From assembly GCA_964017185.1 (NCBI GenBank), contig OZ024875.1, positions 49,927,986 to 49,991,985 on the forward strand: 64,000 nt of DNA, written 5' to 3'. Source of the stretch: Rugalucina vietnamica (lineage: Eukaryota; Mollusca; Bivalvia; Lucinida; Lucinidae). Positions 3,361-60,559 of the stretch are shown in pieces. The notes beneath the pieces are model-generated. The model made no database searches and was not told the DNA's origin. It saw nothing but the letters and a program-made list of their open reading frames with translations. The translations under genes were made by a program, and so were the position numbers. The stretch's first letter is position 1. The number at the start of each line of letters is the position of its first letter.

Positions 3361-6300
3361 ATGGATATTTTAAAAGCAGAAATAGAGAGAAAGAAGAGAC
3401 TTCTCGATAAGAATAAAGATCTTCTGGTGTGTGCTTGATTATGATGATAACTCGGGAACAATTACAATTGTCATTAGTTTTCGCGATTTTGTTTTACATC
3501 CTGAATGTCAAAATTTTTTCAGTCATGCTGGGTATTGATCAGATCGGCAAGCTATTCTTTCGTCAGAAAAAAAAATCAATATTGTTTACCATTACTGCTC
3601 CTTTCCTGTTATTTTGCTCATTCGGTTGAGGGTACAACCCGGTCAATATATTGATATGATTTGATCATTTTTAGACGCTTATAAAATCATATTTTTTCAG
3701 AAATATTACAGGCTTTATTACTTTGAGTTGAAGAAATGATAATGATCTAAAGATGTTTTCAAAGCTTCTATGAAAGACTTAATTTTGTTTTCATATTTTC
3801 CATTTTATATTCAGTATTAAAGGCCATAGCGATAAACACAAAGTCATTCACCTCATACAAATTACCGACAACATCATTCCGACATTAATAAGCAGTTAAG
3901 GTCCTTTTCCAAAAAAGCTTGCAGCCTTTCAGTTTTACCTGTAGTATATGCTGAATGCTTTAGTAGTGGTCAGTCCTGATAGCGGTGTCTCTAGACCTCC
4001 CACTGACATTCCTGGTATTAATTTCCCCCTGGTGATTTTTTTTCAATTTGGCCTGTAAACCATTCAGATTCAGTAGTCATGGCTCTATTTTGATATCCAC
4101 AATTCATTTTGCTAGCAAGTACATGGATGTATTGATGCAAGCTGTGATATGCAACTGTACAAGTGCTCTAACATTCACAGCTATTTTATGTGTCCATATG
4201 AAGATGGACTCAACATTCAGATCGACGCAACAATGCAGTGTCTTTGTATTGCTCCAGGACTTCACTTGGTGCAAACAGGGTTCAAATGAGACTTGTCATA
4301 AGAAAATCAGATTTTGCTTATGCGAAAACAAAGGCGCAGATTAGCTTTGCACTAACCGTGAAGCTGATCAGCGCCTTTGTTTTCTGCATTTATAAAATCT
4401 GCACTACATTCTACTGTAAACGTTAACTAGATTTCTTGCAAGCTTATTTATCTAGTGTCTTCCATCAATTAATTAGAAATAATCATTTTTATTCAAAATT
4501 TACAAAGTGCCTTTATGATTTGAATGTTGCATGTATTTAAGCCATGTTGTGAGAAATGGAAATACTACACAGCTACTCCGTCCTTCCATTTTACCTACAT
4601 CAATATGACAATTCCTCAGCTTCCTACATGAAAGTTTCAGAATTCAGTTCATGATTCCATTTTCTTTGACTCTGTATTTTATTATACTTATAGGCTCCTA
4701 GTAAGAAATATTTCAAGAGAGGAGATTTAGCAGCAAGACAAGAAGAGGAATATTGGGCTAAGCATCAAAGACTGGTCACGGAACCAGGAAAATCAGAGGT
4801 ATGATCAAACAGAACAGATAGAAAAGCTTTGATTTTGCGAATTGTAAATGTTTGTTTATGTGTAAACTTTATACTTTTGAGTAGTGGCATTTATATATCA
4901 TAATGTTCATTGATACGCTACACAAAGATAAGTCACTTTAAGTTGTTTTTTATCATATAAAAACAAGTTTGCAGGCTTGATAGTGAAAACACAGATTTTT
5001 TTCTTCATTTAAAAGAGTCACGAGGTGGCTCAAATGTGACCATGTTGTGCTTTCCCACATTAATGAATAAATGAGCCGCCTCATGGGAAAACCAACAATC
5101 TGCATAGGCGAAAACAAAGACGCAGATCAGCTTCGCGGTAACCGCGAAGCTGATCAGCGCCTTTGTTTTTGCTACTCGGATAGTACAATTCTTCTTCTAC
5201 TTAAATCCGAAATTTCAAGCTTCTAGCTCTTTTCTGTGCTTGTAAAGGTCGGTTTGTGTCGGACCTGTTCGGAAACCACATTGTTGGTTTTCCCACGAGG
5301 CGGCTCAAATGTTGATTAATATATAAATAAATAGCAACAATAATAGAAATGTCAAGATTTTTCAGCAGAAAATTATCATTTTTTGTTGAGATTTCGTAGA
5401 TGTTAAAGTTAATATTTATATAGGAATATTACATCAGGAAAGCGTATCCATAAAATAAATACCCTTTATGTAGTGAAATTGGAGTCTGCAGGTTTACTAT
5501 TTTTCTTATTAGCTCACCTGAGCCGAAGGCTCACAGGTGAGCTTATAGGATAGGCAGGCATCCGTCGTCCGTCGTCGTCCGTCCGTCGTCCGTCCGTCCG
5601 TCCGTCCACAATTTCAAAGAAGAATATTTCTGAAGCTAGTAGGCCGATCTTGATCAAATTTAATGTGAACCATAATTGGGTTGGGGGATTGACGGCATTA
5701 GGTTTTGGAGCAGATTGTATCAAAATTGTGGTTTCCATGGCAACAGATAGGTCCCATAGACTTACAATGGGAAAAACTAAAAAAAATCTTCTTCTCTGAA
5801 ACCACTAGGCCCACAGCTTTGATATTTGGTATGTAGCAATGGCATATGGTCCTCTACATAAATTGTGCCATTCATGCCCCTGGGGTCAAATTTGGCCACG
5901 CCCCGGGGGTCGATAGTCTCCATAGACTTACTATGGGAAAAAAAATTAAAAAATCTTCTTCTCTGAAACCACAGGGCCCACAGCTTTGATATTTGGTATG
6001 TGGCAATGGTTAATGGTCCTCTACATAAATTGTGCCAGCCATGCCCCTGGGGTCAAATTTGGCCACGCCCCGGGGGTCGATAGTCTCCATAGACTTACAA
6101 TTGGAAAAACTAAAAAAATCTTCTTCTCTGAAACCACTAGGCCCACAGCTTTGATATTTGGTATGTAGCAATGGCTAATGGTCCTCTACATAAATTGTGC
6201 CATTCATGCCCCTGGGGTCAAATTTGGCCACGCCCCGGGGGTTGATAGTCTCCATAGACTTACTATGGGAAAAAAATAAAAAAATCTTCTTCTCTGAAAC

Positions 6301-9300
6301 CACAGGGCCCACAGCTTTGATATTTTGTAGGTGGCAATGGCTAATGGTCCTCTACATAAATTGTGCCAATCATGCCCCTGGGGTCAAATTTGGCCACGCC
6401 CCGGAGGTCGATAGTCTCCATAGACCTACAATAGGAAAAAAACTAAAAAAATCTTCTTCTCTGAAACCACTAGGCCAACAGCTTTGATATTTGGTATGTA
6501 GCAATGGCTAATGGTCCTCTACATAAATTGTGCCATTCATGCCCCTGGGGTCAAATTTGGCCACGCCCCGGGGGTTGATAGTCTCCATAGACTTACTATG
6601 GGAAAAAAATTAAAAAATCTTCTTCTCTGAAACCACAGGGCCCACAGCTTTGATATTTTGTAGGTGGTAATGGCTAATGGTCCTCTACATAAATTGTGCC
6701 AATCATGCTCCTGGGGTCAAATTTGGCCATGCCCCGGGGGTCGATAGTCTCCATTGACCTACAATAGGAAAAAAACTAAAAAAATCTTCTTCTCTGAAAC
6801 CACTAGGCCCACAGCTTTGATATTTGGTATGTAGCAATGGCATATGGTCCTCTACATAAATTGTGCCATTCATGCCCCTGGGGTCAAATTTGGCCACGCC
6901 CCGGGGGTTGATAGTCTCCATAGACTTACTATGGGAAAAAAATTCAAAAATCTTCTTCTCTGAAACCACAGGGCCCACAGCTTTGATATTTTGTATGTGG
7001 CAATGGCTAATGGTCCTCTACATAAATTGTGCCAATCATGTCCCCGGGGTCAAATTTGGCCACGCCCCGGGGGTAGATAGTCTCCATAGACTTACAATGG
7101 GAAAAACTAACAAAAATCTTCTTCTCTGAAACCAAAAGGCCCAGAGCTTCTATATTTTGTATGTAGCAATGTTTGGTAGTCCCCATTATAAATTGTGCCA
7201 GTCATGCCCCTGGGTCAAATTTGGCCATGCCCCGGGGGTCAATAGTGTCCATGCATAGACTTTCATTGGTCGATTCTCAATTAATTTAAATCTCATGAGC
7301 TTACAATATGATAATCTCTCAGGTGAGCTACAGGACCAATGGTCCTCTAGTTTTTGATGTACCTACAATAAGTGTTTGTTTGTTTTTTGCAAACACAATG
7401 AAACTATCAAAATATTTTTCATGATTTTTCACTTATCACAGATGAAAAAACACTGTGTATTACATGGGTGTATTTTCATAATGCATATTTTTTTTCTCTA
7501 AAGGGCAGTGGTGAGAGTCATGATTCTGGAGATGAACACAAGAAAAGAGATGAAGAGAAAGGGACAAAAATATTGCCTAGGAAAGATGTGAGTTTACTCT
7601 GACACTAAAATACCTCTTAACACTACATGTTTTATTATTTCAAGTTAACAGGAAAAAGAGTTGCTTAAATGCATTTTTTTTTTCAGGACATTTCGGCAAA
7701 CAATAGACAAGTGCAAAATACATGTAATAGGCTAAACATTCATTGCTCTTGAGGAGTGGGTAAAACAAAAGAAAGAAAAAAATGTACACACTGTAAGATT
7801 CCTTTGAAATTGAAAAGAGTGCAGGAAAAAATATAGGATTTCTTAGGAAAGTCTATTTGTCACAGAGACATTTTTCACCCAAAAAGCTTGTGTGTTTTAA
7901 TAGAAATATTTACTTATATGTCTTTTATCTCTGACAACAGGTTATTCGAAGACTGAGAGAGAGAAATGAGCCAATCACATTGTTTGGTGAGTCAGAGCAG
8001 GAAGCCTTTGACAGACTGAAGAAACTGGAAGCCAGTGAACCAGATTTCAACATTGTATGTATTGACATTTGAGTTGAATTTTGGACATGCGAAAACAATA
8101 GCATGTTGAGGCAGTCTTGAGGTTGACTCCCATGAAATATTTCTGTGACAAACATGATTCAAGAAGAGCATGTGAAAAGAGAATGACATGCTTTTTATTT
8201 ACTGGTAACCTGCCTCCTGGCCCCGAGGTTATAAAACTTTTTTCAAGCTCAGCTCAGCTGAGCATGAAATTTCAAGTGCTCATAAATGCTGAAATAGTAA
8301 AAAATTGTGGAAAATTCAGGTTCAAAACTAAAAAACTAGTAATTTATCCTGCTAATAAATGTTAAAATGCCAACAATTGTTGGCATTTTAACATTTATGA
8401 GCAGGATAAATTTTAGTCTCAGCTGAGTTGAGCATGATAAAAGTTTTATAACCTAGAACAGTGTGGGTAGGATATCTGATTGTCCCCATATGGCCTCAGC
8501 TGCTGTCCACAGATGAGCCGCCTGGTGGAAAAACCAACAATGTGGTTTCCGAACAGGTCTGACACAAACCGGCCTGTACAGCTACAGAAGCAGGCTAGAA
8601 ACTTGAAATTTTGGAGTTAAGTAGAGGAGGAATTGTACTATCCGAGGAGCGAAAACAAAGGCGCTGATCAGCTTTGGGTTAAGGGGAAGCTGATCTACGT
8701 CTTTATTTTCACCTATAGATGCGGATTGTTGGTTTTCCCATGGGGCAGCTCAGATGTAAAACATGAACTCTAACAAACAAAAAGGAATATTTTTGTATTG
8801 TAATTTAATGCATATAAATATATCAAATTATTTTTTGTGTTTTGAAATAAAGGACAAAGTTTTTATTTGAATTTCATAACATATTTCAACTTGAAACATA
8901 TTCAATATTTTTAAGGTGGTGGGTATGCCATTTGTAACTGGTCAACATGTGGCTCAGTAGCTCAGTGGTAGTGTGCTCGCACAGTAAGACTGGGTTTGAG
9001 CACCGGTCAGGCCACATTCTTTTTCCGCCCCTGTGACATTTGGTGGCCAGTGTGGGTCCATGCTCGGGATGTAAGCAGCAAAAATGGGATTGTATCGTCG
9101 GTTCCAGCATAGTTCCGAGCAGATTCAGGGACAAATCTAATTAAACAGGGGTGGGGGGGGGTGTGGGGGTGGAGATCAATCATGTAGCTCTGTGGTAGAG
9201 TGCTGGCACTGTAAGGGAGAGACCCAGGGTTCAAGTCCCGACCAGGCCACATTCTTTTTCCGCCACTGTGACAAAATGACTTCAAGGTTGCTATGGACCA

Positions 9301-12300
9301 GGTAGACCAAGATTATTTATAATAATTAAGCGTTCATCAGGCTCAGAGAATCAATACACAGTGTCATTTAAAGATGATGGGAGTTAAATAAATGATTTCT
9401 TACATGTCTTTTAAGCATGAATTGATAGTGTGTTTATCTTTTAGGGAGGCGGGTATGCCAACGACTTCAAGGCTGCTATGGACCAGGTGGATCAGGATTA
9501 TTATGCAGAGATAATGAAGAGTTCCTCAGGCTCGGAAAATCAGTCCACAGTCTCAATTAAAGATGACGGGACTACGAAAGAAGATATCGAGGTAATTGTA
9601 ATTTGAATGTATGAGCTTTGTCAAGAATATAAACAATCCAATTCTTTTGGTTTCCAAGCAGGTCAGATAGAAATGGGCTATATACGAACAGGAGAATGTC
9701 AGTTGCTTGAAATAGTTAATGGATTATACTATCAATGTAGCAAAAAAAATGCTAAGGGTAACTGTGTTGTGAGAATCCTGCCTTTTCAGTTTCTTGCCAG
9801 GTTCAGCACAAGCTTAACTGATCATAGAGATGGCTTGAGGCATGTAACTTTGTTTTATCTACGGGTTATGTAGCAAAAATAATGATGCAGTTGGACTATG
9901 CAGCTACTACTGATTGGTCCCTTTGTTTTTGCACTTATGTGACATGACATGTAAATAAAGCAGTAGGAACCAGTGACAAGCTGTTGTATGTGTGTATGAG
10001 CCGCCACATGGGAAAAGCAACAATCTGCATATGCGAAAACAAAGCCGCAGATCAGCTTCGCGGTGCTGATCAGCGCCTTTGTTTTCGCTTATCGGATAGT
10101 ACAATTCCTCTACTGCTTAAATCCAAAATTTCAAGCTTCTAGCTCTTTTCTGTGCTTGTACAGGTCGGTTTGTTTCGGGCCTGTTAGGAAACCACATTGT
10201 TGGTTTTCCCACGAGTGGCTCAATTATCTTCAAAATAATCTCCTTTGGGTTGTTTCCACTTGTTTGTTAAATAATGTCTCTTGATAAATGTTATGCACCA
10301 ATCTAGTTTGAAAAAAGAAAATGAACATTTTACCTCTTCGTGTATAAAAGTGATTTATTCAAAATGTCCGTATACAGTTATTGTTGTCTGTAGCATCTAA
10401 GTAACAGTAATTTTAAATGAAGTTTCATTGTCATAGTATCAAGCACATTACGAAAACACGCCCATGTAAAATATAGAGTTTTCTAAAGTTGTAAAAATTG
10501 AAAATTTTCAACAGAAAACTTTTGATTTTTTTCTTATTTTTGCTCAAAACATAGATTGTGGGTACACGCTGAGGCGGTTCTAACGAGTACCCATAATTTA
10601 TGTTTTGGGGCAAAAATAAGAAAAATAGGCATACCCCTGCATACCCCGTTTTGCTATATAAAAGTGGGGTTCAAGGGGGTATACATTACACGGACATGTT
10701 TTCATGATGCAGTATTTTTAATTTCCACAGAACATGAAGGAACATCTTGGTAAAGGAGACAGTGACAAAGACCAGGAAATTATTCTCAAATATCTAAAGG
10801 TATCCATTATCCTATGCTCTCAACAAGTGAGCCACCTCGTGGGAAAACCAACAATGTGGTTTCCAAACAGGCCCGACACAAATCGACCTGTACGGTAAGA
10901 GAAAAGAGCTAGAAGCTTGAAATTTCGGATTTGAGTAGAAGAGGAATTGTACTATCCGAGTAGCGAAAACAAAGGCGCTGATCAGCTTCGTGGTTACCGC
11001 GAAGCTGATCTGCGTCTTTGTTTTCGCATATGCAGATTGTTGGTTTTCCCATGGGGCGGCTCATTTGTCATTGCAAAGGATTCTCACATTTTATCAACAA
11101 AAAATAACTGTATTGGTAATATTCATGTTTGAAATTTTGATGAATCGCTAACCAACGATGTCATTAATTTTGAACAACTGGGCCCAGGATGTTTAGTACA
11201 GTTTGACACAAACATGCATGCTTAGCTGTACATGTACTTTATATTTGAAAGGCAACTAATACGAATATGAAAAATTGAGCCGCATCATGAGAAAACCAGC
11301 AATGTGGTTTCCGAACAGGTCAGACACAAACCGAGCTGTACAAGCACAGAAGATGGCTAGAGGCTGGTAATTTTGTATTTAGAAAGTAGAGGAATTGTAC
11401 TATCCATGTAGGGAAAACAAAGGGCGCTGATAAGCTTTGTATTTACGAAGCTGATCTGCACCTTTGGTTTCACATATGCAGATTTTTCTCATGAGGCGGC
11501 TCAAATGAAGTTATCGCAAAAGATTTCAAAGCTTACAGTAGATAAACGGCATTGCATCAATAATGGACTGTAAACAAGTACCCACAATCTGTGTTCTGAA
11601 TATTTGAAAGTGATTATTTATTCTCATTTTTCTGTGAAAATCCTGATTACTGCCTAGGTGTATTTTAAAACATACTTGAGCCTGTGCATGGGAAAACCAA
11701 CAATTTGCATAAGCGAAAACAAAGCCGCAGATCAGCTTTGCGGTGACTGCGAAGCTGATCAGCGCCTTTGTTTTCGCTACAAGGATAGTACAATCTCTCT
11801 TCTTCTTAAATCCGAAATTTCAAGCTTCTAGCCTGCTTCTGTGACTGTACAGCCTGGTTTGTGTCGGACCTGGTCTGAAACCCAAATTGTTGGTTTTCCC
11901 ATGCACAGGCTCACTTATTTCTTACCTAGTCATCTATTTCTTTCTTATAGCTCATATTAAAAGAGTGGGGAAATGACATTAACAAGAAGAGTGATGAAGA
12001 GAAGAGAAGTCTGAAAGGCAAGGTGGCCAGTGCAATGCATGCTCAGACTGTGCAGTATATGAAACCTATGTTCAGAAAGTTAAAACATAAGGTAGGTGGT
12101 GGTGGATTAGAACTTAAAAAGTTGTTTTCACAAATGCCAATACATGGAAAGTTTATTTTTTTTTCTTTGCAGTTCATTTGACCAATTTAATTTCCTTGTT
12201 CTATTTGGCCATTTCTTGTTAGGGCTATTCCAGTACCAGAGGACCAATGGTCCTGTAAACGCTCACCTGAGATCTGCTTCATATACCAATAAACATATTT

Positions 12301-15300: not shown

Positions 15301-18300
15301 AACCACTCCCAAATCTATAGTGTCTTTTTAGTGTTAGTAATGTATTTTAATGTGTGATGGGAGTGGCCTGGGTGAAATCTCAGTGGTATGTGAAAAACAG
15401 AGCATTCCATATAGCCCCACGTTACAAGTGTGTGTGTGTGTGCGTGTGTGCATGTATGTATACCTATGTATGTGTATGTTATTATTTGGCCCATTTCTTG
15501 AGCACTTTAATTTAAGCATTAAGATAAAACTATTCACTATTTTTGCATTATCTGCTGGTTTCCTGCTTACAAAAAATCAACATTGAAAATACAGGTAAAA
15601 AGGAACCCCTGACCTCTGAACCCCTGATCTCAAAGGTCAGGGGGGGGGGGGTGTCTTGTTACACATATTTCCAATAATTATTATTTTGAAGCTGGGAACC
15701 AGCAGACTATGCAAAAGTGGTGAATAGACTCTGACCTTAGGGGGGGGGGGGATGTTCGAATTTGAGTTGCAACGTGGTTGGAGTGCTGTATTCTAGAAGG
15801 TTTAGGGGCGAGTTTTGAGCATTTTGGGATGGGCTTTAGCTGCTCCACTGCATTGTCATAAGATTTCAGCAGCTCTATAAACAGAATAGGAAACTTGCAG
15901 ACCCTCAGATATGACGTTGTATTTACTACAAGAATGAGCCAGTTAAAATCCAGAGCTGGCAGGTTAGGCAAAGGTCAACATTGGTTTGTGATAGTCTTCT
16001 ATTTGAAGATATGGAATGGTCTAGGATGGGCTGTGCTTTTGGCGAGTTGGGGTGTTTCACGGACCGCAATAAACTGCGAGTTGGCATTAACAGCAGGTAA
16101 TGCAAAAAAGGTGAATACCCATGATGCAAACAGGTCATCCTAAAATCATAAAGTGAACACACAGTTTCCCATGCATGACACTAGTTAATAGATCATCCCA
16201 AACCACTCACAACATACACTACCTTCTCCAGACCCCCTCTGGCAGACTAGATTGAGGTCAAACCATCCAAAACGGTCATATATTATCCCATTCCACAGGT
16301 CTGAGACTGATGTTATGGTGTTTTAACAAATTGAGGTGGTTTGGGTTTCGGGTGGTTTGGGGTGTTTCCAGGGACTGGATCGGTCTCGTAATTCGGCCAT
16401 TTTCTATACTGGTACCCCGTTATCACCTATATACGTATAGGGCAGGTACAAGTCAAGCCATTTTCATGATTCTGACGGATTTTTTGTGTTGTTTTTATTT
16501 TGTAATATTTCTTCTTTTTAGCTTGTTTAATTTGCTTCTATACATTGCATTGAATTTTACACCTTAGAACCGATTTTCAACACGAAAAAATACCCCACCT
16601 CCTATAGAAGTAATTTTTCTCCAACTCCCACCACGTACAGAAGTATTTTAACCAACGAAGGACCCTATGATAGAAGTTTATTAAAGTGCCGTCTTCCTGG
16701 GGTACCTATGTTCAACTGGAATAGCCCTTAAGAGTTGGGTGGCCATTTTGAGCTGGAAATCAAAACAGATTGTTTCCATGGCATTGCTAGGACAATGATG
16801 ATGTCAAAACTTAGCAGTTAATCCTGGCTATGTACCCCGCTATCCGCAGCCCTAAATGAGACGAGATTTTCAATTACCGGTGCATGATAATACAATTTCC
16901 TTTAAAACTTTGGCTATTTGCTTTCAGAACATGCAAGAAGACATATTGGAGTGTTTGGTGTCAATCATGAAATATATGTTAGAGAGGGAATATAATAAGG
17001 TATGTTGTAATTGGTTGATTTACCTGAGCTATTTCATAGAAGCACTCTGTGAATATTTTTTTAACATTCAGTGTGCCTTATGGTATAGGTCTCCATATCT
17101 TGTGTGTTCATTTGGCTTGATTTGGTTGATATTATTTTATGCAATTCATTTTGTGAAACTAAATGAAACAGAGGACCAATGGTCTTATAAACGCTCACCT
17201 GAGACCTGAGATATACATTATATACTAATAAACTTTTTTGACTACAATGGCAATATGCATGTATATAACCCCAGGGCAGGGTCAGAATAACCCTTGGAGT
17301 CAATGTCTTTTCAAATCATGAAAATTCAGTCCATTTGCCAATTTACTGCAAGTTTTGCCCTTCAAATGACATTTTAACAATTTTCCCCATTCAAATGCAT
17401 GGGCAACCTAAGTTGACCTTGTCGTAAAATAGGTCAAGGTCATCCCAGGGTCATGATTGATATAAATTTGAAGACCGCCATTACTTGATGTTTCATGCCA
17501 AGTTTCAAAATCATAGGCCTCCTGGTTCTGAAAAAGGAGATTTTTTAAAATGTTTGTTATTTATAGCTATGGTGGCCATCTTGGTCATGTGACCATGACT
17601 ATTTATGAAAACTTTTTTTCACTCTTCCTGAGGATGCTCAACATAAAGTTTGGTTTTGATTGGCCAAGCGGTCTTAGAGATGTTAGAATATTTTGGTCAT
17701 TTACATGTATACAGTATAGACCCGGGGCAGGGGCAGACAACTGCCTGGGCCTAATATATTATCATATGCATAAATTTTCTGTCCATTTGCTCATTCCTAG
17801 CAAGTTTTCTGCCATTAAATGACATTTTCCTATTTTTCCCCATTCAAACACATGGGCCACCTAAGTTGACCTTGCCGTAAGGTAGGTCAAGGTCATCCCA
17901 GGGTCATGATTTATACAAACTTTGTAGAGCTCCATTCCCAGATGCTAATACCAAGTTTCAAAATCGTAAGTCTTCTGGTTCTGGAAAAGAAGATTTTTTA
18001 AAGGTCTTTGCTATTTATAGCCATGGCAGCCATCTTGGTCATGTGACCTTGAACATTTATATAAACTTTCATTCCCTCTTCCTAAGGATGCTCCACATAA
18101 AGTTTGGCTTTGATTGGCCAAGCAGTTTCAGAGAAGAAGGTGTTTGTATATTTTGGTCATATTCGTACATGTATATAGCCCCGGGGCAGGGGCAGACAAC
18201 CCCCTGGTCCCAAAATATTTTCATAAACATAAATCTTCTGTCCATTCGTTCATTTTCTAGCAAGTTTCCTGCCATTAAATGACATTTTCCTATTTTTTCC

Positions 18301-20076
18301 CATTCAAATGCATGGGCGACCTAAGTTGACCTTGCCATAAAAAAGGTCAAGGTCATCCCAGGGTCATGATTTATACAAACTTTGTAGAGCTCCATTGCCT
18401 GATGTTTCATGCCAGGTTTCAAAATCATAGGCCTTCTGGTTCTGGAGAAGAAGATTTTCAAAGGTTTTTGCTATTTATAGCCCTGGTGGCCATCTTGGTC
18501 ATGTGACCATGACCATTTATACAAACTTTTGTTCCCCCTTCCTATGGATGCTCCACATGAAATTTGAATTTGACTGGCCAAGTGGTTTCAGAGAAGAAGT
18601 TGATTGAAAAGTGTGAACGACAACAACAACAACAACGCCAACGACAACAATGACGACAGATGACAGAACATGGGTATACTATAAGCTCACCTGTGAGCCT
18701 TCGGCTCAGGTGAGCTAAAAAAAAAATATTGACACATATTAGCCCCACCTTTTATCAGACATAAGTGAGCCATGATGCGAGAAAACCGGTCTTTGGGTTT
18801 CCAACCAGGTCTGACACAAACCGGCCTATGCACCTACAGAAGATTGCTTGAAGCTTGAAGTTTTGGGTTTATGAAGAAGAGGAATTGTACTACACCTTAA
18901 GCGAAAGCAAATGCGCTGATCAGCTGTGCAGTTACTGCACAGCTGATCTGCGCCTTTAGTTATAGCAAAGGCAAAAATTCAATTTTCTCGCAACGTAGCT
19001 CAAGTTATGTTGGATTTCGTTATATACATGATGTCATAAGCTGAATGTAAATAATTTTATTTCAGGCTCATGATGCCTATTTAGAGATGGCTATCGGCAA
19101 TGCTGCCTGGCCTATAGGAGTAACTATGGTCGGCATTCACGCTCGTACGGGTCGAGAAAAGATCTCATCAAGATACGTGGCACATGTACTCAATGACGAA
19201 ACACAGAGAAAATATATTCAGGTGAGAAATTACTATACATGTAAATCTATTTCTTTGAATTGGAAAGGAGTTACATAATGAGATTGTGTCTTCAGTGTTT
19301 CTGCGAATGACAAAAACCAAGGCTAAAGGCCTGCAAAGCATGGTGTAGTGGTTAGGCTACTCACCTTGTAAACAAGGGGTTTTGAGTAAGAGCCCAGACA
19401 TCTCTTAAGTCTTCAAATGAGATTTTAAATGGAGGTTCCATCTCCATATTACCACAGCTGTTGTGAGTGATGTAAAGTGCAAACAGCATCATCACCACTA
19501 AACCATGGTTAGAGGCTTGAGACTTAAGGAAGTGGCAGGATTTACAAATTAGGCAGTGAGAAATGAGCCCCTGCATTAAATAACCAAGAATTTGCATATG
19601 TGAAAACAAAGACACAGATCAGCTGTGCAGTAACTGCACTGCTGATCAGCATCTTTGTTTTCGCTACACGGATAGTACAATCGCTCTTCTTCTTAAATCC
19701 GAAATTTCAAGCTTCTAACCTGCTAGCGTGACTGTACAGCCTGGTTTATGTCAGACCTGGTCAGAACCCCAAATTGTTGGTTTTCTCATGCACAGGCTCA
19801 ATTATTACCTTTCACTGTTGCTTTACATCCATGGTAACAGCTGAAGTCATGCCAGGGCAGTGTTTAACCCTAACTTCATTGACCCTAGGGCATTGTATAT
19901 ACTTTTGCCATAAACCGGCAACTGTTTCTTCTTGAACCAACAGAAGAAATAATTTCACAAAATTGTGATTTTGATTTGTTTATTTGCAGGGATTAAAAAG
20001 AATCATGACACAGGCCCAGCTAGTGTTCCCTACAGACCCGTCAAAAAGTTATATGTTCGAACCCATACATCACTGA
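3361..20076 (+). CDS. PRPF18: Pre-mRNA-splicing factor 18 (complete, ten exons)
   Basis: Coding exons: 3361-3426, 4694-4798, 7504-7587, 7941-8054, 9445-9591, 10731-10799, 11951-12091, 16928-16999, 19066-19221, 19990-20076. They join to 346 aa, close to the roughly 342 aa of vertebrate PRPF18; all nine introns are GT-AG and phase 0. The start [12 protein letters not shown] matches the family N-terminus. The small splicing-factor motif lies in exon 4 (about residues 86-110, [17 protein letters not shown]). The helical Prp18 domain covers about 190-340 and includes the conserved loop near 287-297 (HARTGREK). The end FPTDPSK is also typical. The protein acts in the nucleus in the second catalytic step of splicing with Slu7. 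A degenerate copy of exon 5 lies in intron 4. Identification is very secure. Confidence 0.97.
3640..4290. other. PRPF18 intron 1, left part
   Basis: AT-rich intron sequence. No gene, repeat or inverted structure was recognised here. Confidence 0.5.
4300..4395 (+). mobile_element. GAGCC-hairpin MITE, partial copy
   Basis: Only the central hairpin survives: GCGAAAACAAAGGCGCAG, a degraded stem, then GCTGATCAGCGCCTTTG. The outer ends are lost. In PRPF18 intron 1. Confidence 0.75.
5073..5306 (+). mobile_element. GAGCC-hairpin MITE, full copy
   Basis: Runs from GAGCCGCCTCATGGG to the matching GAGGCGGCTC. AAAT flanks both sides. The central stem CTTCGCGGTAACCGCGAAG is a perfect palindrome. PRPF18 intron 2. 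Confidence 0.9.
5564..5610 (+). repeat. GTCC/GTC microsatellite
   Basis: CCGTC and GTCC units (ACGG on the other strand) sit beside the 166-bp array, as in pearl-like elements. Confidence 0.9.
5758..7257 (+). repeat. 166-bp tandem array inside pearl-like copy 1
   Basis: The word AGACTTAC/AGACCTAC recurs at about 5758, 5924, 6091, 6256, 6422, 6589, 6755, 6922, 7088 and 7257, giving a period of 165-169 bp. Two unit types alternate: one has CTATGGG with ACAGGGCCCAC, the other ACAATGGG/ACAATAGG with ACTAGGCCCAC. The higher-order unit is therefore about 332 bp. Confidence 0.9.
8227..8453. mobile_element. MITE with GGTTATAAAACTTTT ends
   Basis: GGTTATAAAACTTTT at the left is matched by AAAAGTTTTATAACC at the right. 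The middle holds a near-perfect palindrome centred on CAACAATTGTTG (about 8348-8405). PRPF18 intron 4. Confidence 0.8.
8515..8751 (-). mobile_element. GAGCC-hairpin MITE, full copy
   Basis: AGAT is duplicated at 8511-8514 and 8752-8755, direct support for a 4-bp target duplication. The central stem is partly decayed. PRPF18 intron 4. Confidence 0.9.
8908..9385 (+). pseudogene. Degenerate duplicate of PRPF18 exon 5, split by a SINE
   Basis: 8908-8930 matches the end of intron 4 and the first bases of exon 5 (GGTGGTGGGTATGCCA). 9275-9385 continues with the rest (ACTTCAAGG..GCTATGGACCAGGT and on to AAAGATGATGGGAG). The copy has in-frame stops (TTA TAA TAA) and has lost its acceptor AG and donor. 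Between the halves is a 344-bp insertion with two tRNA-like heads. The true exon lies 60 bp further right at 9445-9591. The simplest reading is a local tandem duplication of the exon followed by SINE insertion and decay. Confidence 0.85.
8931..9274 (+). mobile_element. tRNA-derived SINE pair inside the dead exon copy
   Basis: Two tRNA-like heads occur: one near 8950 (TAGCTCAGTGGTAG box A, degraded box B) and one near 9181 (TAGCTCTGTGGTAG, then GGTTCAAGTCCCGACC as a good box B). Each is followed by CCACATTCTTTTTCCGCC and CTGTGAC. A G-rich stretch (9147-9172) separates them. No complete cloverleaf was found, so these are SINE parts and not tRNA genes. Confidence 0.7.
9998..10221 (+). mobile_element. 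GAGCC-hairpin MITE, internally shortened
   Basis: Both ends are present, but the hairpin has lost the second half of its tip (GCAGATCAGCTTCGCGGT runs straight into GCTGATCAGCGCC). PRPF18 intron 5. Confidence 0.85.
10445..10710 (+). mobile_element. MITE family 2 (ACGAAAACACGCCCATG ends), copy 1
   Basis: Left ATTACGAAAACACGCCCATG pairs with right CGGACATGTTTTCATGAT. The centre is an inverted pair around GTGGGTACACGCTGAGGCGG..CGAGTACCCATAA. It ends about 20 bp before PRPF18 exon 6. Other copies lie at 26481-26748 and 28740-29025. Confidence 0.75.
10829..11062 (-). mobile_element. GAGCC-hairpin MITE, full copy
   Basis: Both ends are intact and the stem is nearly perfect (CTTCGTGGTTACCGCGAAG). 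Flanks AAGT and ATTT do not match. PRPF18 intron 6. Confidence 0.88.
11277..11502 (-). mobile_element. GAGCC-hairpin MITE, degraded copy
   Basis: Ends are recognisable; the stem has lost several bases. PRPF18 intron 6, about 175 bp before the next copy. Confidence 0.85.
11678..11912 (+). mobile_element. GAGCC-hairpin MITE, GAGCCTGTGCATG subtype
   Basis: ACTT is duplicated on both sides (11674-11677 and 11913-11916). The ends belong to a second subtype, GAGCCTGTGCATGGG with ATGCACAGGCTC. PRPF18 intron 6, its third copy in this intron. Confidence 0.9.
12235..13896 (+). mobile_element. Pearl-like element, copy 2 (nested in the 4.5-kb element)
   Basis: Begins at the GAGGACCAATGGTCCT palindrome and ends with the GCTCACCTATGAGCCTTCGG..GGTGAGCT hairpin. 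An ACGG microsatellite (13805-13842) precedes the end. Inside are about three tandem units of about 324 bp (near 12980, 13306 and 13632, sharing CCCATTATAAGTCTATGG). It interrupts the left inverted repeat of the surrounding element. Confidence 0.78.
12975..13700 (+). repeat. ~324-bp tandem repeat in pearl-like copy 2
   Basis: CCACTTTTCCCATTATAAGT and GCAACCAATCAAAAT recur with a spacing of about 324-326 bp. Open frames in this array are repeat artefacts. Confidence 0.85.
14520..14592 (-). mobile_element. SINE head fragment
   Basis: CACCAGACACAGCAGTTAGATGATC matches the tRNA-related head of the SINE at 50205-50450, here cut short. Confidence 0.6.
14746..14790 (+). repeat. G-rich tract with quadruplex potential
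   Basis: Runs of three to nine G separated by one or two T. Similar G-runs occur near 9147, 15641, 15739 and 25897. Confidence 0.7.
14806..15129 (-). other. Unassigned 107-aa ORF inside the 4.5-kb element
   Basis: The frame starts [13 protein letters not shown] and has an ordinary amino-acid mix, including a CRNCRRRY patch. Residues 13-30 loosely recall the start of a SAM-like helix bundle, but there is no firm match. It could be a remnant of an element-encoded protein or chance. Kept as an ORF only. Confidence 0.2.
15425..15480. repeat. (GT)n-type microsatellite
   Basis: GTGTGTGTGTGCGTGTGTGCATGTATG tract (shown in parts), degraded towards the right. Confidence 0.8.
17170..18716 (+). mobile_element. 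Pearl-like element, copy 3
   Basis: Starts GAGGACCAATGGTC..ACGCTCACCTGAGA and ends GCTCACCTGTGAGCCTTCGG..GGTGAGCT. About three units of about 450 bp repeat the words GTTGACCTTGCC, CCCAGGGTCATGAT and GCCATCTTGGTCATGTGACC. A CAACAACGA-rich simple repeat replaces the ACGG array near the end. PRPF18 intron 8. Confidence 0.75.
18777..19001 (-). mobile_element. GAGCC-hairpin MITE, TGTGCAG stem variant
   Basis: AAGT is duplicated at 18773-18776 and 19002-19005. The hairpin tip reads CTGTGCAGTTACTGCACAG: both arms differ from the commoner TTCGCGG form yet still pair. PRPF18 intron 8. Confidence 0.9.
19333..19400 (+). mobile_element. Possible tRNA-derived SINE head
   Basis: TGGTGTAGTGGTTA resembles a box A and AGGGGTTTTGAGTAAGAGCCC a decayed box B. 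No complete tRNA fold. Confidence 0.35.
19565..19799 (+). mobile_element. GAGCC-hairpin MITE, TGTGCAG stem variant
   Basis: Ends are of the GAGCCxxTGCAT subtype; the hairpin tip is CTGTGCAGTAACTGCACTG. PRPF18 intron 9. Confidence 0.85.
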
Positions 20077-20174: not shown

Positions 20175-20409
20175 GAGCCGCGACGCGAGAAAACCGGTCT
20201 TCGGGATTTCCGACCAGGTCCGACACAAACCGGGCTGTACAGTCTCAGAAACAGGCTAGAAGCTTGAAATTTCGGATATAAGAAGAAGAGGAAATATACT
20301 ATCCGTGTAGCGAAAACAAAGGCGCTGATCAGCTTCGCGGTTACCGCGAAGCTGATCTGCGCCTTTGTTTTCGCCTAGGCAAAAATCCGGTTTTCTCACG
20401 ATGCGGCTC
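20175..20409 (-). mobile_element. GAGCC-hairpin MITE, third end subtype, in the PRPF18 3' region
   Basis: AATT is duplicated at 20171-20174 and 20410-20413. Ends are GAGCCGCGACGCGAG and CTCACGATGCGGCTC, with CCGGTCTTC/CCGGTTTTC inside. The stem is perfect. It begins 98 bp after the PRPF18 stop codon, so the 3' UTR may include it. Confidence 0.9.
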
Positions 20410-21110: not shown

Positions 21111-21335
21111 GAGCCTGTGCATGAGAAAACCAACAATTTGGGTTCCGACCAGGTCTGACACAAACCGGGCTGTACAGTCACAGAAGAGGGCTAGAAGCTT
21201 GAAATTTCGGATTTAAGAAGAGGGATCATACTATCTGTGTGGTGAAAACAAAGGTGCTGATAAGCTTCGCGGTTACTGCGAAGCTGATCTGCGTCTTTGT
21301 TTTTGCATATGCAGATTGTTGGTTACTCATAAGGT
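21111..21335 (-). mobile_element. GAGCC-hairpin MITE, right end decayed
   Basis: Starts GAGCCTGTGCATGAG; the stem CTTCGCGGTTACTGCGAAG is almost perfect. The last 20 bp are degraded. Lies between the convergent PRPF18 and sulfotransferase genes. Confidence 0.8.
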
Positions 21336-29245: not shown

Positions 29246-29465
29246 GAGCCGCCTCATGGGAAAACCAACAATATGCATTGGCGAAAACAAAGACGGTAAC
29301 CGCGAAGCTGATCAGCGCCTTTGTTTTCGCTACTCGTATAGTACAATTCCTCTTCTACTAAAAATCCGAAATTTCAAGCTTCTAGCTCTTTTCTGTGCAT
29401 GTACAGGCCGGTTTGTGTCGGACCTGTTCGGAAACCACATTGTTGGTTTTCCCACGAGGCGGCTC
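29246..29465 (+). mobile_element. GAGCC-hairpin MITE, left stem arm deleted
   Basis: Ends complete. The left arm of the hairpin is missing (AAAACAAAGACGGTAACCGCG). Confidence 0.88.
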
Positions 29466-34757: not shown

Positions 34758-34956
34758 CCCCAAACAAAGGCGCAGATCAGCGTCGCAGTAACTGCGAGGC
34801 TGATAAGCGCCTTTGTTTTCGCTACACAAATAGTACAATTCCTCTACTTTCTAAATTAAAACTTTCCAGCCTGTAGCCTTCTCCTGTGGTTGTACAGACC
34901 GGTTTGTGTCGTACCTGTTCAGAAACTACTTTGTTGGTTTTCGCATGAGGCGGCTC
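34758..34956 (+). mobile_element. GAGCC-hairpin MITE, 5'-truncated
   Basis: Begins inside the hairpin (CAAACAAAGGCGCAGATCAG). The tip CGTCGCAGTAACTGCGAGG is another variant. Ends CATGAGGCGGCTC. About 90 bp upstream of the sulfotransferase B start codon. Confidence 0.85.
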
Positions 34957-37707: not shown

Positions 37708-37942
37708 GAGCCTGTGCGTGAGAAAACCAACAATCTGCCTATGCGAAAACAAAGACGCAGATCAGCTTCGCGGTAACCGCGAAGCTGATCAGCGCCTTTG
37801 TTTTCGCTACACGGATAGTACAGTCCCTCTTCTTCTTAAATCCAAAATTTCAAGCCTCTAGCCATCTTCTGTGCTTGTACAGCCCGGTTTGTGTCAGACC
37901 TGGTCGGAACCCCAAATTGTTGGTTTTCTCATGCACAGGCTC
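37708..37942 (+). mobile_element. GAGCC-hairpin MITE, GAGCCTGTGCGTG subtype, full copy
   Basis: AAAT is duplicated (37704-37707 and 37943-37946). Perfect tip CTTCGCGGTAACCGCGAAG. Between paralogues B and C. Confidence 0.9.
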
Positions 37943-39535: not shown

Positions 39536-42345
39536 TCAACCGACTTCTGGCCAAACTGATAATGGGTGTAATACTGAATAGTTCAAATACTTAATACTGT
39601 CTTTGCACAGTATATCGACAATAACCCTGAATTGTGCTGTCATAGTTGTCCGCCATTTTTCCACGTGAGTCTTTGCATCTTTATGTGATTTCCCAACTTG
39701 CCATGGTTCTTGACAAACTTTACACCCTTCCTTTGTTGCATTTCCCGTCAATTTCTTTACATAAGCTTTTATTTTGTCAGTCAATTCAATTCCAGCGAAA
39801 CTGTACATTTCGGTACAAACTTTCTCAGTGTTATATGCAATATCTTCATATAAAACGGGCATAACTCTATTAGAGAAAACTGCATCGCTGTGACTTAATG
39901 ATATATCGTCACTCAGTCTGTAACAGTATCTGGCGGAACAGCGTGCCAGGTCATCTGGAGATCCCTGCCCACACATTGCACGTGCTTTTTGTGACATCAT
40001 CGTGTCTCTAGGGTCACGGATCAGATGGATTATTTTTAGCATCGGGAGTTCCGTCATCAGTCCCTGAATCTGCCTCATCGACACCCGGATTATCTTTAGT
40101 ACTCTGTATTTCGACTTCAGACATGCGTTGCGGAGTTTCAATGCGCAAAGGGCCTGGGCTTTTTCTTTTAGCACCTTAGTCAAACTTTGAACACATTGGG
40201 TAAATACTGCAGTTTTCTGGCCATATCCTAGAAACTGCCTGTCCATTAAAGCTGCAAAGAATAACAAAATATTAATGTAGACACGACTCTCACATCTTAT
40301 TACTGAATGATTTCCATAACGTAGAGTTAGACAAAAGCATAATGCAATAAATCTGATCTTTGAATTATCGTCAACAATTTAATTCTGTATTGTAACATTG
40401 CCAGTAACACCTTTTAATTTACATGTTAATTGCATGAAACATTATATTGACAGAGTTCGTTAAAATTGCAAGTTAAAGATTTCATAAATTGGTATGTATA
40501 TGTTATCTAAACATGTCAATGGTACATTACAGTATCATATCTTCACATATATCCATGGGAACTCATTTGATGAATATAACATAGCAGTAAACTTTAGAGT
40601 AGAGGTTTTTTTTACAACATTAATTACATGTAACAGTGCAGAAGCATGGAACAACTATATGATTAAGGTATTGTTAATCTATCTTTATCTTTACCAAAAA
40701 CATACCTGTACTAATTGACTTTAGAAGTATCATATACACTTACCTCTTTTATAAAGGTTTGTTAAGTCACATGTGAACCAGGATCGTATAGTATGAAGTG
40801 CCACTTCAGTAGTATTATACTTTCCGTATGGTCTGAAAAGCAAAATACTATTTCTTTCAGATTTAGGACGAGAACCGTGGTTTCATGGAAAACTTGTTGC
40901 TCAGTTCTTTCAAAAGTTAGCTACCAATTCAATAGACACTCAATACTTCTATTGGCGAGGAAGGGACAACCCATTTTAAATACATGAACCATACAGAAAA
41001 AAAGTTGAAAAGTTAGTTGAATAAGATAAAAAGTACAGCTGCCGACTTGATTGAAAATATGTGCACGTTGGCAAACATAATATGTCTACGCCTTCTCACA
41101 AAAGTTATATAGATACGACGTGCATGATATGAAATATACGAGTAAAGACCGTGACTTACATTGAAGTACCATTCACAAACTCCATCGGTGATTTTGAATT
41201 AACAACAGATTGAATGAAGTGTAGAGGTTCAAAGACGTAGAAACTATCCGGATGTTGCTGCATTATCTCCCCTGTCAATGACGATCCACTGCGCATGTAC
41301 GTCAGAATTAAGATGGCGGTGAAATTAGCTGCTGAAAAAATGCAATTGCATTATTAATATACAAGGATTTTCTAGTAGTTAAACGGATATATGGTCCGTC
41401 GTTCGCTCTTTTATACTGCAGAAACGGCCCTTCTAATGGTCATGTCACACACAGCATGTCTTTTAGCATTTTACATTCTTTTTTATTAAGAAGTTCTGAG
41501 ATGATAATAATGACATCTGAGACTAGGCGGTATACACTTTCCAAGTATTATAAGCATCTGATAAATACATTAAATTAAAGATTCTAAGAAACAAACATTT
41601 ACCAGGTACACGTTTGGCCTCTACTACGTTATTTGTCCCTGTCATGCTGGCATTTCCTTTTATATCCAGAGGTTTTCTTATCACCACCGACTGGTCCAAT
41701 GGTGCTGCCGTAACGCTGCCATTTGGTGGCCTTAGCGTAACATAGACAACATTGTCTTTCATAGGTACAACTATGGATGCTGCACCATCTAATAACATGT
41801 TGCCATATGGTACTGAAACATGCATGTATTAAAATAATATCAAATATTTAGCTGTATGTACTCCAAGCTTTTTCATTTGTATGTATGCCAATCAGCGTTA
41901 ATCTACCTATTGATAAATAGACGACATTCAAATGTTTATGTTGAATATGGCGTTTATTTCATCGAAAGAAGTGATAAATATTCATATTTCTTAAGTGGTG
42001 AAGCATTTGTTTTATTTCTAAGAAGCTACATTTATACCAACAAGTTTACCAGTCCAAGTTTAAAAATACGTTTGAACACACATACCAATTTACAAGAACA
42101 AAAAACAGAAGAAAAAAATGTGTCTCCGTGGTTTTTGAATGCAAAGTCTGACTAATTCAGTACTGAAAAATCAAATATACTTAAATTCAATTTAGAATAT
42201 GAACCTAGACTTAACAGTAAATTCACATCTCTTGGAATAACTTTATGGATTTATGGGACAACTTACCAACAAGCATGAAGGACAAAACTACAACGACGAG
42301 AACAACGACTAGCGACCTAGTACTTCTTGATATATGCTTGCTCAT
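39536..42345 (-). CDS. Carbohydrate 6-O-sulfotransferase, paralogue C (five exons)
   Basis: Exons in order: 42345-42267, 41812-41603, 41331-41160, 40832-40744, 40251-39536, giving 421 aa with phases 1, 1, 2, 1, as in paralogue B. A PAPS-dependent Golgi sulfotransferase is predicted. The basic head MSKHISRSTR is followed by the anchor SLVVVLVVVVLSFMLV (11-26). The stem (27-97) is longer than in A and B and rich in Val, Pro and Asn. The PAPS 5' loop is at 107-116 (TYMRSGSSLTGE). The 3'-phosphate motif is at about 257-272 (IIHLIRDPRDTMMSQK). CKVCQEPWQVGKS lies near the end. All splice sites are GT-AG with matching phases. Substrate (Gal, GalNAc or GlcNAc) cannot be decided. Confidence 0.9.
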
Positions 42346-52745: not shown

Positions 52746-52962
52746 GTGCCGCGTCATGAGAAAACCGGATTTTTGCCTGTGCGAAAACAAATGCGCAGAT
52801 CAGCTGTGCAGGAACTGCACAGCTGATCAGCGCCTTTGTTTTCGCTACACGGATAGCACAATTTCTATTCTTCTAAAATTCGAAATTCAAAGCTTCTGGC
52901 CTTCATCTGTGTTTAGTCCGGTTTCTGTCCGACCTACTGTTAGTTTTCTTATGGGAATGCTC
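52746..52962 (+). mobile_element. GAGCC-hairpin MITE, TGTGCAG stem variant
   Basis: First base changed (GTGCCGCGTCATGAG). Hairpin tip CTGTGCAGGAACTGCACAG. The right end is decayed. Confidence 0.85.
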
Positions 52963-53317
52963 ATACAAAACTCTTCAGCAGTAACTATGCTGAAGTCACT
53001 TACTAATTACGGGGGTATTCGTGAGTGGTTTTGTCTTTGCGTTTTTAGAGCCAGACTGCTACTATCGAGTATCTTGTACAGAGAAATGACGGCCACAGTC
53101 ACCTCTTTTAGCGCTAGATTTTTTTTTTTTTTTCTATTGAGTCGATGACGCTTTTTTTATCCAGCTTCACCGAAATTCAATGCTCTTCTTTTATTTTCTT
53201 TTATGATGTTTTTAATTGATATGATAATTACAAAATGAAAAACGGACACCAAATACTTCACTCATTGAAATACTCTTTTCAGTCCTACTGATGTGAAACC
53301 CTGATGACAAATAAGCT

Positions 53318-53412
53318 ATGTCATGAGGAAACCAGATTTTCGAATATGCGAAAACAAAGGCGCAGATCAGTTGTGCAGTATCTGCACAACTGATCTGCGC
53401 CTTTGTTTCGCT
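53318..53412 (+). mobile_element. GAGCC-hairpin MITE, hairpin half, TTGTGCAG variant
   Basis: Tip GTTGTGCAGTATCTGCACAAC; both arms carry the extra change. The stem lacks the usual A.A mismatch (GCGCAGATCAG faces CTGATCTGCGC). Cut off 12 bp before the next copy. Confidence 0.85.
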
Positions 53413-53424
53413 ATTCCTCTAAAT

Positions 53425-57179: not shown

Positions 57180-60100
57180 TCACAGCAACAGTAAATATAT
57201 CTTCGTGCTCTTATGTTCCCCTGTCCGTTCTCCTAAATTACCGCCCTTGTATGGGTACTGGCAATAGGGTATCTCAATAATTGTTTCAAAACCACTTTTC
57301 TCATAGATCCTCTGTGAAAAGTTGGAGGTTCCCTCTCCCTTGATTGCCTTGAAACCTAGCTCCTTTGCCAAAGCTACCCCAGCGTTTAGTAGTATATACC
57401 CTAACCCTCGCCGACGATAATTTTTATGCACAGCAAGAGCCACAAAATGGAACATTTCATCAATGTTACATCTATTGAAAAGGTCCATTTCTGCGTCTTT
57501 ATGAGACAAAAATGTCCACATGTCTTTAACGTTTTCGTAAGTCACGTGACTGACATCGTTGACGTCACTTTTCTTGGCTATCCGGCATGTTCTGATCCCC
57601 ATAATCTCATTTGTGTCGTCTGAAACTGCCATGATGGATAAGTTTTGTTTCAGAACAGACGTGATTTTCTGTTCTGAGAACTGGTTCCACACTACGCCGA
57701 ATGCGCCACAAATAGTTTCGTCTGGCATAAACTGGTTCGCCATGATGTCCATGACGTCACCAAACCGGTCTTCCTGTATCAATTCAAGATGGCCGCCAGG
57801 AACTTGAAATCCAGTCTTGATTTTATCAAAAACCTGAAAACAATGAGTAACTGAATAATAGTTAGGACAACATATGAGCTGCCCCATGGGAAAACCAACA
57901 ATCTGCATATGCGAAAACAAAGGCGCAGATCAGCTTCGCAGTAACTGCGAAGCTGAACAGCGCCTTTGTTTCGCTACACGGATAGTACACTTCATCTTCT
58001 TCCTAAATCTGAAATTTCAAGCTGTTAGCCTGCTTCTGTGCTTGTACAGTTCGGTTTGTGTCAGACCTGTTCAGAAACCACATTGTTGGTTTTTCCACGA
58101 AGTGGCTCATATCTCATAGTCATTTAATTTTTATCAAGATGGGTCTATACATATATGTACTATTCACTTTTCCTAGCTATAAATCCAAGCAATCTTAAGC
58201 CCTGGTCACATGGACAGATTTACTCACGTATGCAAATTTTGCGTATACGCAAATTTTACTCACGTAAGCAAATCTGTCCATGTGACCGCAATTTTTCCAC
58301 TTTTGCGTATACGCAAAATTTGCATATACGCAAAATTTGCACTTGGTCTAGAGCAAGTGCAAATCTCAATTTACTTTTACTTACGTGAGCAAAATTTGCA
58401 TACATGCAAATCTGTCCATGTGACCGGAAAGTAAATTTGCATATGTGAGTAGTTATTAATTTGTGCCATATAAATGCTAAAAAGGCGTTAATTCAAACTG
58501 CAATTCGGAAAGCAAAGTTTGCATATGTGAGTAGTTATTAATTTGTGCCATATAAATGCTAAAAAGGCGTTAATTCAAACTGCAATTATTCCCAAAATGA
58601 CTGAATAAAACAATACAACATATCTGACCTAATTAAAATAACACTACCACCTTAAAACGTTCAGTAGAAAGCTATTGAAGGCCTAGGGGTTAAAGGAATC
58701 TGTTAACTGAGAGCAGTGGATTTTGCCACACCAAATAAATTCCCAAATGTTCTGTACTCAGTTGGAGTGGCGAGCCAATAGATCATGAGTGCTACTTGTT
58801 TTTGCACATCTAATGCATCCCGTACAGTATTTTCCATTGGAGAAAGATCAGGTTCAAGAACCCTGCACACCTTATTGAAGGTTTGCCTAGTGATTCTGAA
58901 GTTTTCCACCCATTGCTCATCTGTAAATGTCTGTAGCACTATCCTGTCATACCAATCACTAGATCTTTTTTTTCGCCATTTCTGCTTTTCATGTCCTAAC
59001 CCCATAGCAAACCCTAATCCAAGGCAGTATGGCATCTTTCTATGTCGCCTAAACCTGAACAGTCCATTCATTTTAACTACTTTTACTGATATAAATTTTA
59101 TACGATATAAAAATCTGACAATTTTAACTGAAATGACAAGACCTCAAAAGCTCATGTGACCGCAAAGCAAAATTTACTTTTACTTACGTGAGCAAAATTT
59201 GCATATATGCAAAATTTGCGTATACGCAAATCCTGGCCATGTGACCGGGGCTTAAGTAAACTTCGTATGTCATAATATCAGGTTAAAACCCAAAGGTATA
59301 GTTGCACAATTGGAGCCATCGGCTCCGTTAATAAACTTTCCGGTCACGTGCGGCTCCGTATCATATCGGCTGAAATTGTGGAGAGAACAACGAGGCTTGT
59401 AAAGAGTATTTTGGGATACGGGATACTGGGATATTTGTGTTTTGGGATATTCAGGAATTTTGGGATATGGGATATTTTAATTTATTTTGGGATACGATTT
59501 AAATTAATTTTGGGATATGGGATATTTTGGATGGTTTATTTGGGGATATGGGATATTGCCTATACCCCCCTAACCAAGCCTCAACAACGTAAGTTTTCCA
59601 TTTGTTGTCAAAGTTAGTTTTATTTGCTATGTTTTAGCGAAAAAAGATTGTGGTCCCGGGCGAGGGACTTTTTGACTTACTTTTTTGTTTGTGACTATGT
59701 ACTGCATATGGTTTGGTAAACAGGAAAGACCGACACAGATTTCATTAACCGGCGGAGCCGATGGCTCCCATTGTGCAGTTTCCTCGATAGTGGCTCATGG
59801 AACAGCATAATTAAATGTGTCGAGCATTAATATTCAGCTGATTAAGATAGATCAAAGGTAATGGTTTATGTAATGTGTTCAGTCGAACCGTAAATTTGGC
59901 GCTTCCGAGCAAAGGCAGGTTAAGTATTTAAGCCGAAACAGGAAATGGCAGAATTATAAAGAATCAGCGCTTGTTGATTACGCAGTTGTGAAGGCACGTT
60001 TCCCTATTACACATTATCAAATCGTGTAAGAGCACACAAAAAATACATCACATAAAGTATTAGGGCCCACGACAGAACACAAAAAGATCGATTGCAGTAG

Positions 60101-60249: not shown

Positions 60250-60325
60250 TTCCCGTGACACTCTTGCATCTGCGGTGGAAACGCCATTTTATTACTATAT
60301 CGCTGTATATTATGGCAAAATAAAT

Positions 60326-60559
60326 GAGCCGGGTCGTGAGAAAACCATATTTTTGCCTAGGCGAAAACAAAGGCGCAGATCAGCTTCGCAGTAACTGCGA
60401 AGCCGAACATCGCCTTTGTCTTCGCTACACGGATAGAACAATTCCTCTTCTTTCTAAATCCAAAATTTCCAGTCTCTAGCCATCTTCTGTGCTTTACATC
60501 TCGGTTTGTGTCAGACCAGGTCGGAAAACCCGAAGACCGGTTTTCTCGCGGCGCGGCTC
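60326..60559 (+). mobile_element. GAGCC-hairpin MITE, third end subtype
   Basis: GAGCCGGGTCGTGAG and CGCGGCGCGGCTC ends; tip CTTCGCAGTAACTGCGAAG. 76 bp upstream of the proposed GNAT first exon, hence in its promoter region. Confidence 0.88.

Follow-up and report, generated by a model that had tools for sequence, protein, structure and literature searches.

Stowaway, Tourist and other miniature inverted-repeat transposable elements (MITEs) are short, non-coding and abundant elements flanked by terminal inverted repeats (TIRs); the family described here has all of these traits, whereas its target site duplication (TSD) is of another kind and it carries a second, internal hairpin, which those elements usually lack. 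Closer in plan is a 210-bp repeat of Lucina pectinata, which combines imperfect TIRs of 30 bp (27/30) with a 77-bp self-complementary segment (96%), occurs in several copies in introns and promoters, and has similar fragments in other molluscs (PMC4732748). Sola2 transposons generate a 4-bp AT-rich TSD of the form AWWT and have been described with TIRs of 12-21 bp from amoebozoa (PMC3627910). We analysed a 64,000-nucleotide stretch of contig OZ024875.1 (hereafter the window), in which a preliminary description had singled out a repeat family whose two hairpin arms change together. In the overall reading that we consider probable, this repeat is a high-copy MITE whose hairpin tip exists in three inherited alleles, exchanged as blocks between backbones, and whose mobilisation is of the Sola2 type.

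A 234-bp MITE at very high copy number

The preliminary description had recognised a real repeat family with an internal hairpin: the window holds 24 matches of one 234-bp element. Alignment of window and genome copies, found in either orientation, gives a plan (in alignment columns) of left TIR 0-30, hairpin 35-99 with a single unpaired base at its centre (column 67), tail 100-203 and right TIR 204-233. The TIRs (~30 bp, GAGCC...GGCTC) pair according to i+j=233, the outermost 4 pairs being complementary in 96-100%, and enclose a subterminal near-palindrome of ~65 bp and an asymmetric tail of ~105 bp. Our set of 218 unique copies combined those of the window, DNA matches (L001-L030), matches to an arm pattern (L031-L080) and to a tail pattern (L081-L140), and incidental copies in longer loci. 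In the 154/218 copies that retain both terminal letters and flanks, the 4-bp flanks were identical 115 times, whereas shuffled flanks agreed 31 times on average and at most 48 times (2000 trials), and 108 of the 115 identical TSDs had the AWWT form (ATAT 38, AAAT 34, ATTT 27, AATT 9). With TIRs, a fixed-length TSD, small size, no coding capacity and high copy number, the family is a MITE, i.e. a non-autonomous cut-and-paste transposon, at very high copy number. Helitron-type elements have neither TIRs nor a TSD, and the presence of both ruled out such an element.

The genome comprises 1.09 Gb in 47 contigs. In a profile search, the 24 matches of the window covered 7.5% of its bases (64 kb); 20 matches in 40 kb of arbitrary sites (20 positions, 16 contigs) covered 9.7%, and 44 matches in 86 kb of sequence flanking 29 genome matches covered 10.1%. 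The sampled density of 375-511 matches/Mb (7.5-10% of bases) corresponds to about 0.41-0.56 million matches in the genome, fragments included, a figure that comes from a small sample and is to be taken as an order of magnitude. Exact words were found genome-wide 40,168 times for the tail, 29,870 times for the CGG tip and 18,208 times for the CAG tip. Such abundance is high for a single family, yet, if the host is a bivalve, it is in line with the 9.23% that MITEs as a class occupy in one Manila clam annotation (PMC9803972).

The 4-bp AT-rich AWWT duplication is common to Sola2 and to the present family, which is therefore probably mobilised by a Sola2-type transposase; the likeness lies in the TSD, the ends described for Sola2 being the shorter TIRs from amoebozoa (PMC3627910). 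The Lucina pectinata repeat resembles the family in its described plan (30-bp TIRs and a palindrome), and no TSD was identified for it in that description, whereas the 4-bp TSDs of the present family are clear (PMC4732748). A clam-repeat motif, looked for as three short words, was not found in the window. As to the remark in the preliminary description that no account of the family was known to its author, none appeared among the papers listed by sequence fragment or by topic (Repbase and most subscription journals lying outside the scope of this search), while the general anatomy does have its parallel in Lucina pectinata. Of 114 papers containing a fragment, the 20 listed had just one of the two 10-11-letter fragments each, and no title among them pointed to a mollusc repeat. 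We regard the MITE family as new but of a known type, with a Sola2 membership that is supported by the TSD rather than established on other grounds. Matches in viral contigs (none with the stem, two with the TIR core) were attributed to chance, as the 361 and 341 bases concerned showed by eye neither a hairpin nor a second end.

Three tip alleles and the decay of single arms

The TTCGCGG/CCGCGAA tips of the preliminary description are present at 5132/5142, 20334/20344, 37767/37777 and 53583/53593, as are TTCGCAG (57.9 and 60.4 kb), TGTGCAG (18.9 and 52.8 kb) and the 53.4-kb form TTGTGCAG/CTGCACAA; the window contains 14 occurrences of TTCGCGG, as opposed to a mean of 2.2 and at most 7 in 100 shuffles. 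Copies in the window (arms and other parts are given for the first) include the following.

5073-5306, + strand: full copy of the MITE with the CGG allele (TTCGCGG/CCGCGAA), AAAT flanks on both sides
5073-5102, + strand: left TIR of this copy
5108-5172, + strand: hairpin of this copy (predicted fold), arms 5108-5139 and 5141-5172, 1-nt centre
5173-5276, + strand: asymmetric tail of this copy (from the alignment)
5277-5306, + strand: right TIR of this copy
4289-4384, + strand: partial copy, 4/7 tip pairs mismatched
8515-8751, - strand: full copy, broken tip (arm gap)
9998-10221, + strand: copy, right tip arm deleted
10829-11062, - strand: full copy, TTCGCGG/CCACGAA, one arm mutated
11277-11502, - strand: copy, left tip arm gapped
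11678-11912, + strand: full copy, TTTGCGG/CTGCGAA, two mismatches
18767-19001, - strand: full copy, TGTGCAG/CTGCACA (GTGCAG allele)
19565-19799, + strand: full copy, TGTGCAG/CTGCACT, one mismatch
20175-20409, - strand: full copy with type-B ends and the CGG allele
21111-21335, - strand: full copy, TTCGCAG/CCGCGAA, one arm mutated
29246-29465, + strand: copy, left tip arm mostly deleted
34758-34956, + strand: copy, GTCGCAG/CTGCGAG, one mismatch
37708-37942, + strand: full copy with type-C-like ends and the CGG allele
52747-52962, + strand: copy, TGTGCAG/CTGCACA
53314-53414, + strand: partial copy limited to the left TIR and the hairpin, TTGTGCAG/CTGCACAA
53425-53658, - strand: full copy, CGG allele
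57876-58108, + strand: full copy, TTCGCAG/CTGCGAA (CAG allele)
60326-60559, + strand: full copy, CAG allele

The nine copies listed in the preliminary description are exactly those of the 24 window matches in which all seven tip pairs (columns 59-65) are intact. In the other 15/24, one mismatch (4 matches), two (2), four (1) or a gap in an arm (5) was found, or a complete tip pair was missing (3); with 7 mismatched and 5 gapped tips, the decay of single arms is thus present in the window and absent from that listing. The claim that both arms change together stands for the nine listed tips, all of them paired, and for three pairs that covary genome-wide, and is not supported as a general rule. 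Over a wider set of 239 copies, 143 tips were intact, 50 mismatched, 16 gapped and 30 without a complete pair. At the 27 non-diagnostic stem pairs (5082 cells) we counted 122 changes in the left arm only and 133 in the right arm only, along with 22 double changes, of which 11 were compensated and 11 were not. What the preliminary description expected of neutral decay, the breaking of one arm at a time, is thus in fact the commoner pattern (255 vs 22).

Strong covariation was confined to 3/32 stem pairs in the 218 copies. Pair 64/70 (GC 113, AT 59, AC 8, GT 3 of 188) was paired in 91% of copies vs 53% expected from independent arms, pair 61/73 (CG 156, TA 14, TG 8, CA 6 of 185) in 92% vs 79%, and pair 60/74 (TA 167, GC 13, GT 3 of 185) in 97% vs 83%, while the paired fraction of the other 29 stayed within ~4 percentage points of that expectation. 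Two stem pairs are often or nearly always mismatched: 51/83 is fixed as A.A (182/187 copies), and 47/87 is GC in 88, AC in 80 and AT in 11 of 187. Two samples that were not selected by the hairpin agreed with the whole set, tail-chosen copies being paired at 64/70 in 58/58 cases (34.0 expected) with A.A in 54/55, and window, incidental and arbitrary copies in 61/74 (35.5 expected) with A.A in 68/74. Several column pairs of the TIRs covary likewise, one of them being 13/220 (GC 99, AT 59, AC 8, GT 7 of 177).

These counts bear on the proposal that the hairpin is needed as an RNA, whether as a small-RNA precursor or as a structured transcript under selection. In its favour, a strong hairpin is predicted for the element on either strand; a structured RNA would, however, be marked by covariation along the whole stem and by tolerance of wobble pairs, and what we found was covariation at the three pairs above and G.T mismatches no commoner than A.C (107 vs 107, 30 pairs). 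Wobble use thus lends the proposal no support, and with the near-fixed A.A mismatch and decay that mostly hits one arm at a time, we consider an RNA function very improbable.

When all six letters were required for a tip class (182/218 copies), the three covarying pairs resolved into three alleles, CGG (109), CAG (37) and GTGCAG (11), with 25 others. The preliminary description had named derivation of the variants from two or three master copies as the outcome that would undo its proposal, and the three alleles, with 157/182 copies, largely show this pattern. Mean tail divergence within alleles was 6.8% for CGG, 11.8% for CAG and 14.8% for GTGCAG; CGG, having the lowest, therefore looks youngest, in a sample that is enriched for window-like copies. 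The TIRs fall into types A, B and C, with left and right ends concordant in most copies (112 AA, 38 BB, 10 CC), discordant in 10 and uncertain in 15. In the 141/239 copies used for association values, normalised mutual information was 0.86 between left and right TIR and 0.69 for tip columns 64-70, compared to only 0.12 (left) and 0.17 (right) between tip and TIR type. Alleles (CGG/CAG/GTGCAG) were spread over types A (85/14/0), B (14/12/5) and C (6/0/1), each occurring on more than one type, the variable interior columns 34-188 had for the most part a loose association with TIR type (0.02-0.39, 160/239 copies), and the consensuses of B-CGG (14 copies) and B-CAG (12 copies) differed at 6/234 columns (20, 26, 34, 64, 70 and 164).

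Because of the three alleles and the decay of single arms, we attribute the covariation of the tip mainly to alleles that were passed on by descent, or that moved as one block from one TIR type to another, rather than to repair of the hairpin copy by copy. Exchange of the hairpin between backbones is the simplest reading of the weak association between tip and ends; alternatively, the tip difference within the B lineage could stem from a fresh change in both arms. Each allele would have arisen in a founder, its two-arm change being made by two steps or by one template switch, would have spread by transposition, and may have passed between backbones as a contiguous block through recombination or gap repair.

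Probable weak coupling of the arms and constancy of the outer stem

Several observations weigh against this reading. Block exchange was deduced from a weak association. Neither an autonomous partner nor a transposase came to light in four left-end loci, two of which were extended by 7 kb, and none of the 10/12 stop-to-stop stretches of at least 90 aa that were compared with Pfam reached the cut-off; it is for this reason that the TSD has to carry the assignment to Sola2. The tip CpG 61-62 and its partner 72-73 each decay to CA or TG, and genome-wide the compensated double mutants (CA/TG 88, TG/CA 144) exceed the uncompensated ones (CA/CA 77, TG/TG 77) at 61/73 and 62/72, with an odds ratio (OR) of 2.14 (95% confidence interval 1.41-3.23, Fisher p 0.0004). 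Sixty double mutants that we inspected (20/144 TG/CA, 20/88 CA/TG, 20/77 TG/TG) came from a variety of backbones, their tails differing pairwise by a median of 0.19-0.20 vs 0.135 for 60 CGG copies; they therefore do not form a single young subfamily, although older backbones are common to some of them, and pure inheritance is thus not the whole explanation. Finally, the 22 double changes of the sample compare with a mean of 10.8 after shuffling within age classes, and the 11 compensated ones with 5.2, values reached in 0 and 0.6% of 500 shuffles, respectively. In data and shuffles alike, however, about half of the doubles are compensated, compensated and uncompensated changes rising together; with the partner shifted by 1 to 8 columns, 5-17 doubles were counted in 3185-4145 cells, and several of the sample doubles stem from the same few degraded copies.

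The CpG excess on varied backbones is what one would expect if template switching in the quasi-palindrome, a process documented in yeast (PMC3820800), or mismatch repair of an extruded hairpin copied mutations from one arm to the other and so kept the pairing. Other stem CpGs (36/97 and 48/85) gave 6 compensated vs 2 uncompensated doubles in the 60 tip-selected copies, but 9 vs 12 in the 239-copy set; the excess moreover comes mostly from one compensated class (the 144 TG/CA), and single-arm changes outnumber double ones by the margin given above. The preliminary idea that the arms continually correct each other is contradicted by the A.A at 51/83 and the A.C at 47/87, which were left uncorrected, and on these mismatches we rejected continual correction as the main cause; arm correction as such we consider unlikely. 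A weak coupling of the arms at the tip is nevertheless likely, and template switching, repair of extruded hairpins, better transposition of paired tips and residual shared ancestry are all candidate causes.

The sequence of the outer stem is unusually uniform. In 102 window, incidental and arbitrary copies (non-CpG columns, alleles at a threshold of at least 10%), only 1/40 of its columns (column 47) was variable vs 24/90 in the tail (p 0.0006), and private changes amounted to 163/3329 (4.9%) in the stem vs 574/8108 (7.1%) in the tail (ratio test p 0.026); adding 61 tail-chosen copies brought the two tests to 0.0014 and 0.095. Since the stem sequence, including its mismatch, stayed nearly the same as ends and tails drifted apart, its constancy suggests recognition of the sequence in founders. 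Selection on founders would then maintain the outer stem as a sequence, such as a binding site for the transposase or a host factor, rather than as perfect pairing. A stronger version, in which founders could transpose only with a DNA-level signal (a subterminal recognition site or a cruciform) and selection for this signal fixed the compensatory changes, draws on the same near-invariance between subfamilies and on the pairing of all three tip alleles. The constraint acts, however, on the sequence with its mismatch and not on pairing; the rarer private changes in the stem, together with the mixed ratio test, mean that part of the constancy may reflect mutation rate; and one tip arm is missing from the copies at 9998-10221 and 29246-29465, although it may have been lost once they had inserted. 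We therefore hold this version to be possible yet somewhat doubtful.

One proposal would join our preferred reading of inherited and block-exchanged alleles to the weak coupling: the centre of the hairpin may be a hot spot of recombination and correction, where breaks or template switches swap whole tip alleles between copies that differ in their ends and, less often, carry mutations over from one arm to the other. We offer it tentatively, as an idea that is more likely wrong than right by some distance.

Surroundings of the copies and wider meaning

Left TIRs of the same type with other interiors behind them were seen at 2975 and 63402 in the window and at L014:1219, where the interior by eye has a different small hairpin, and the TIR may be shared among several MITE families. 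Genome-wide, 635 matches resembled a left end but lacked the usual start of the stem; the 100 of them that were listed consisted, as judged by eye, largely of right ends and of variants with small indels. Among four left-end loci examined, L223 and L224 turned out to be slightly altered ordinary copies; at L225 (12-813) the MITE has a second foldback element of ~575 bp (183-bp arms, 80%) beside its hairpin and ACTT flanks on both sides, and L226 and L228 have composite ends related to those of L225.

Elsewhere in the window, a cluster of three open reading frames (ORFs) that match sulfotransferase families (PF13469, PF00685) lies at 21590-22408, 31183-31923 and 39536-40267, all on the - strand, and an ORF with a GNAT acetyltransferase domain at 57180-57920 (- strand) has a listed 5' end that overlaps the MITE copy 57876-58108. 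A tandem array of about nine copies with a ~166-bp period occupies 5746-7252, a 28-bp minisatellite (GTATCACAAGTTGACCATCAATTCATTA-like) 62978-63315, and five related copies of a ~455-bp spaced repeat are found at 17404-18544, 12517 and 63433, the 63.4-kb copy directly following a GAGC...GAAAAC end. An inverted repeat at 33738-33871 (53-nt arms, 100% complementary, 28-nt spacer) is perhaps a different young foldback element, and two further near-perfect palindromes lie at 27989-28099 (3-nt spacer) and 58204-58287 (0-nt spacer).

A single small transposon family may thus form 7.5-10% of a 1.09-Gb genome. Covarying arms in repeat families need to be tested against founder alleles, as the signal is here mostly ancestry. 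Near-palindromes in such abundance permit a clean genome-wide test of the mutational influence of one arm on the other in an animal, and, if the hot spot were real, several hundred thousand of them would form one evolving pool, in which interiors are reshuffled while the two ends of a copy stay matched.

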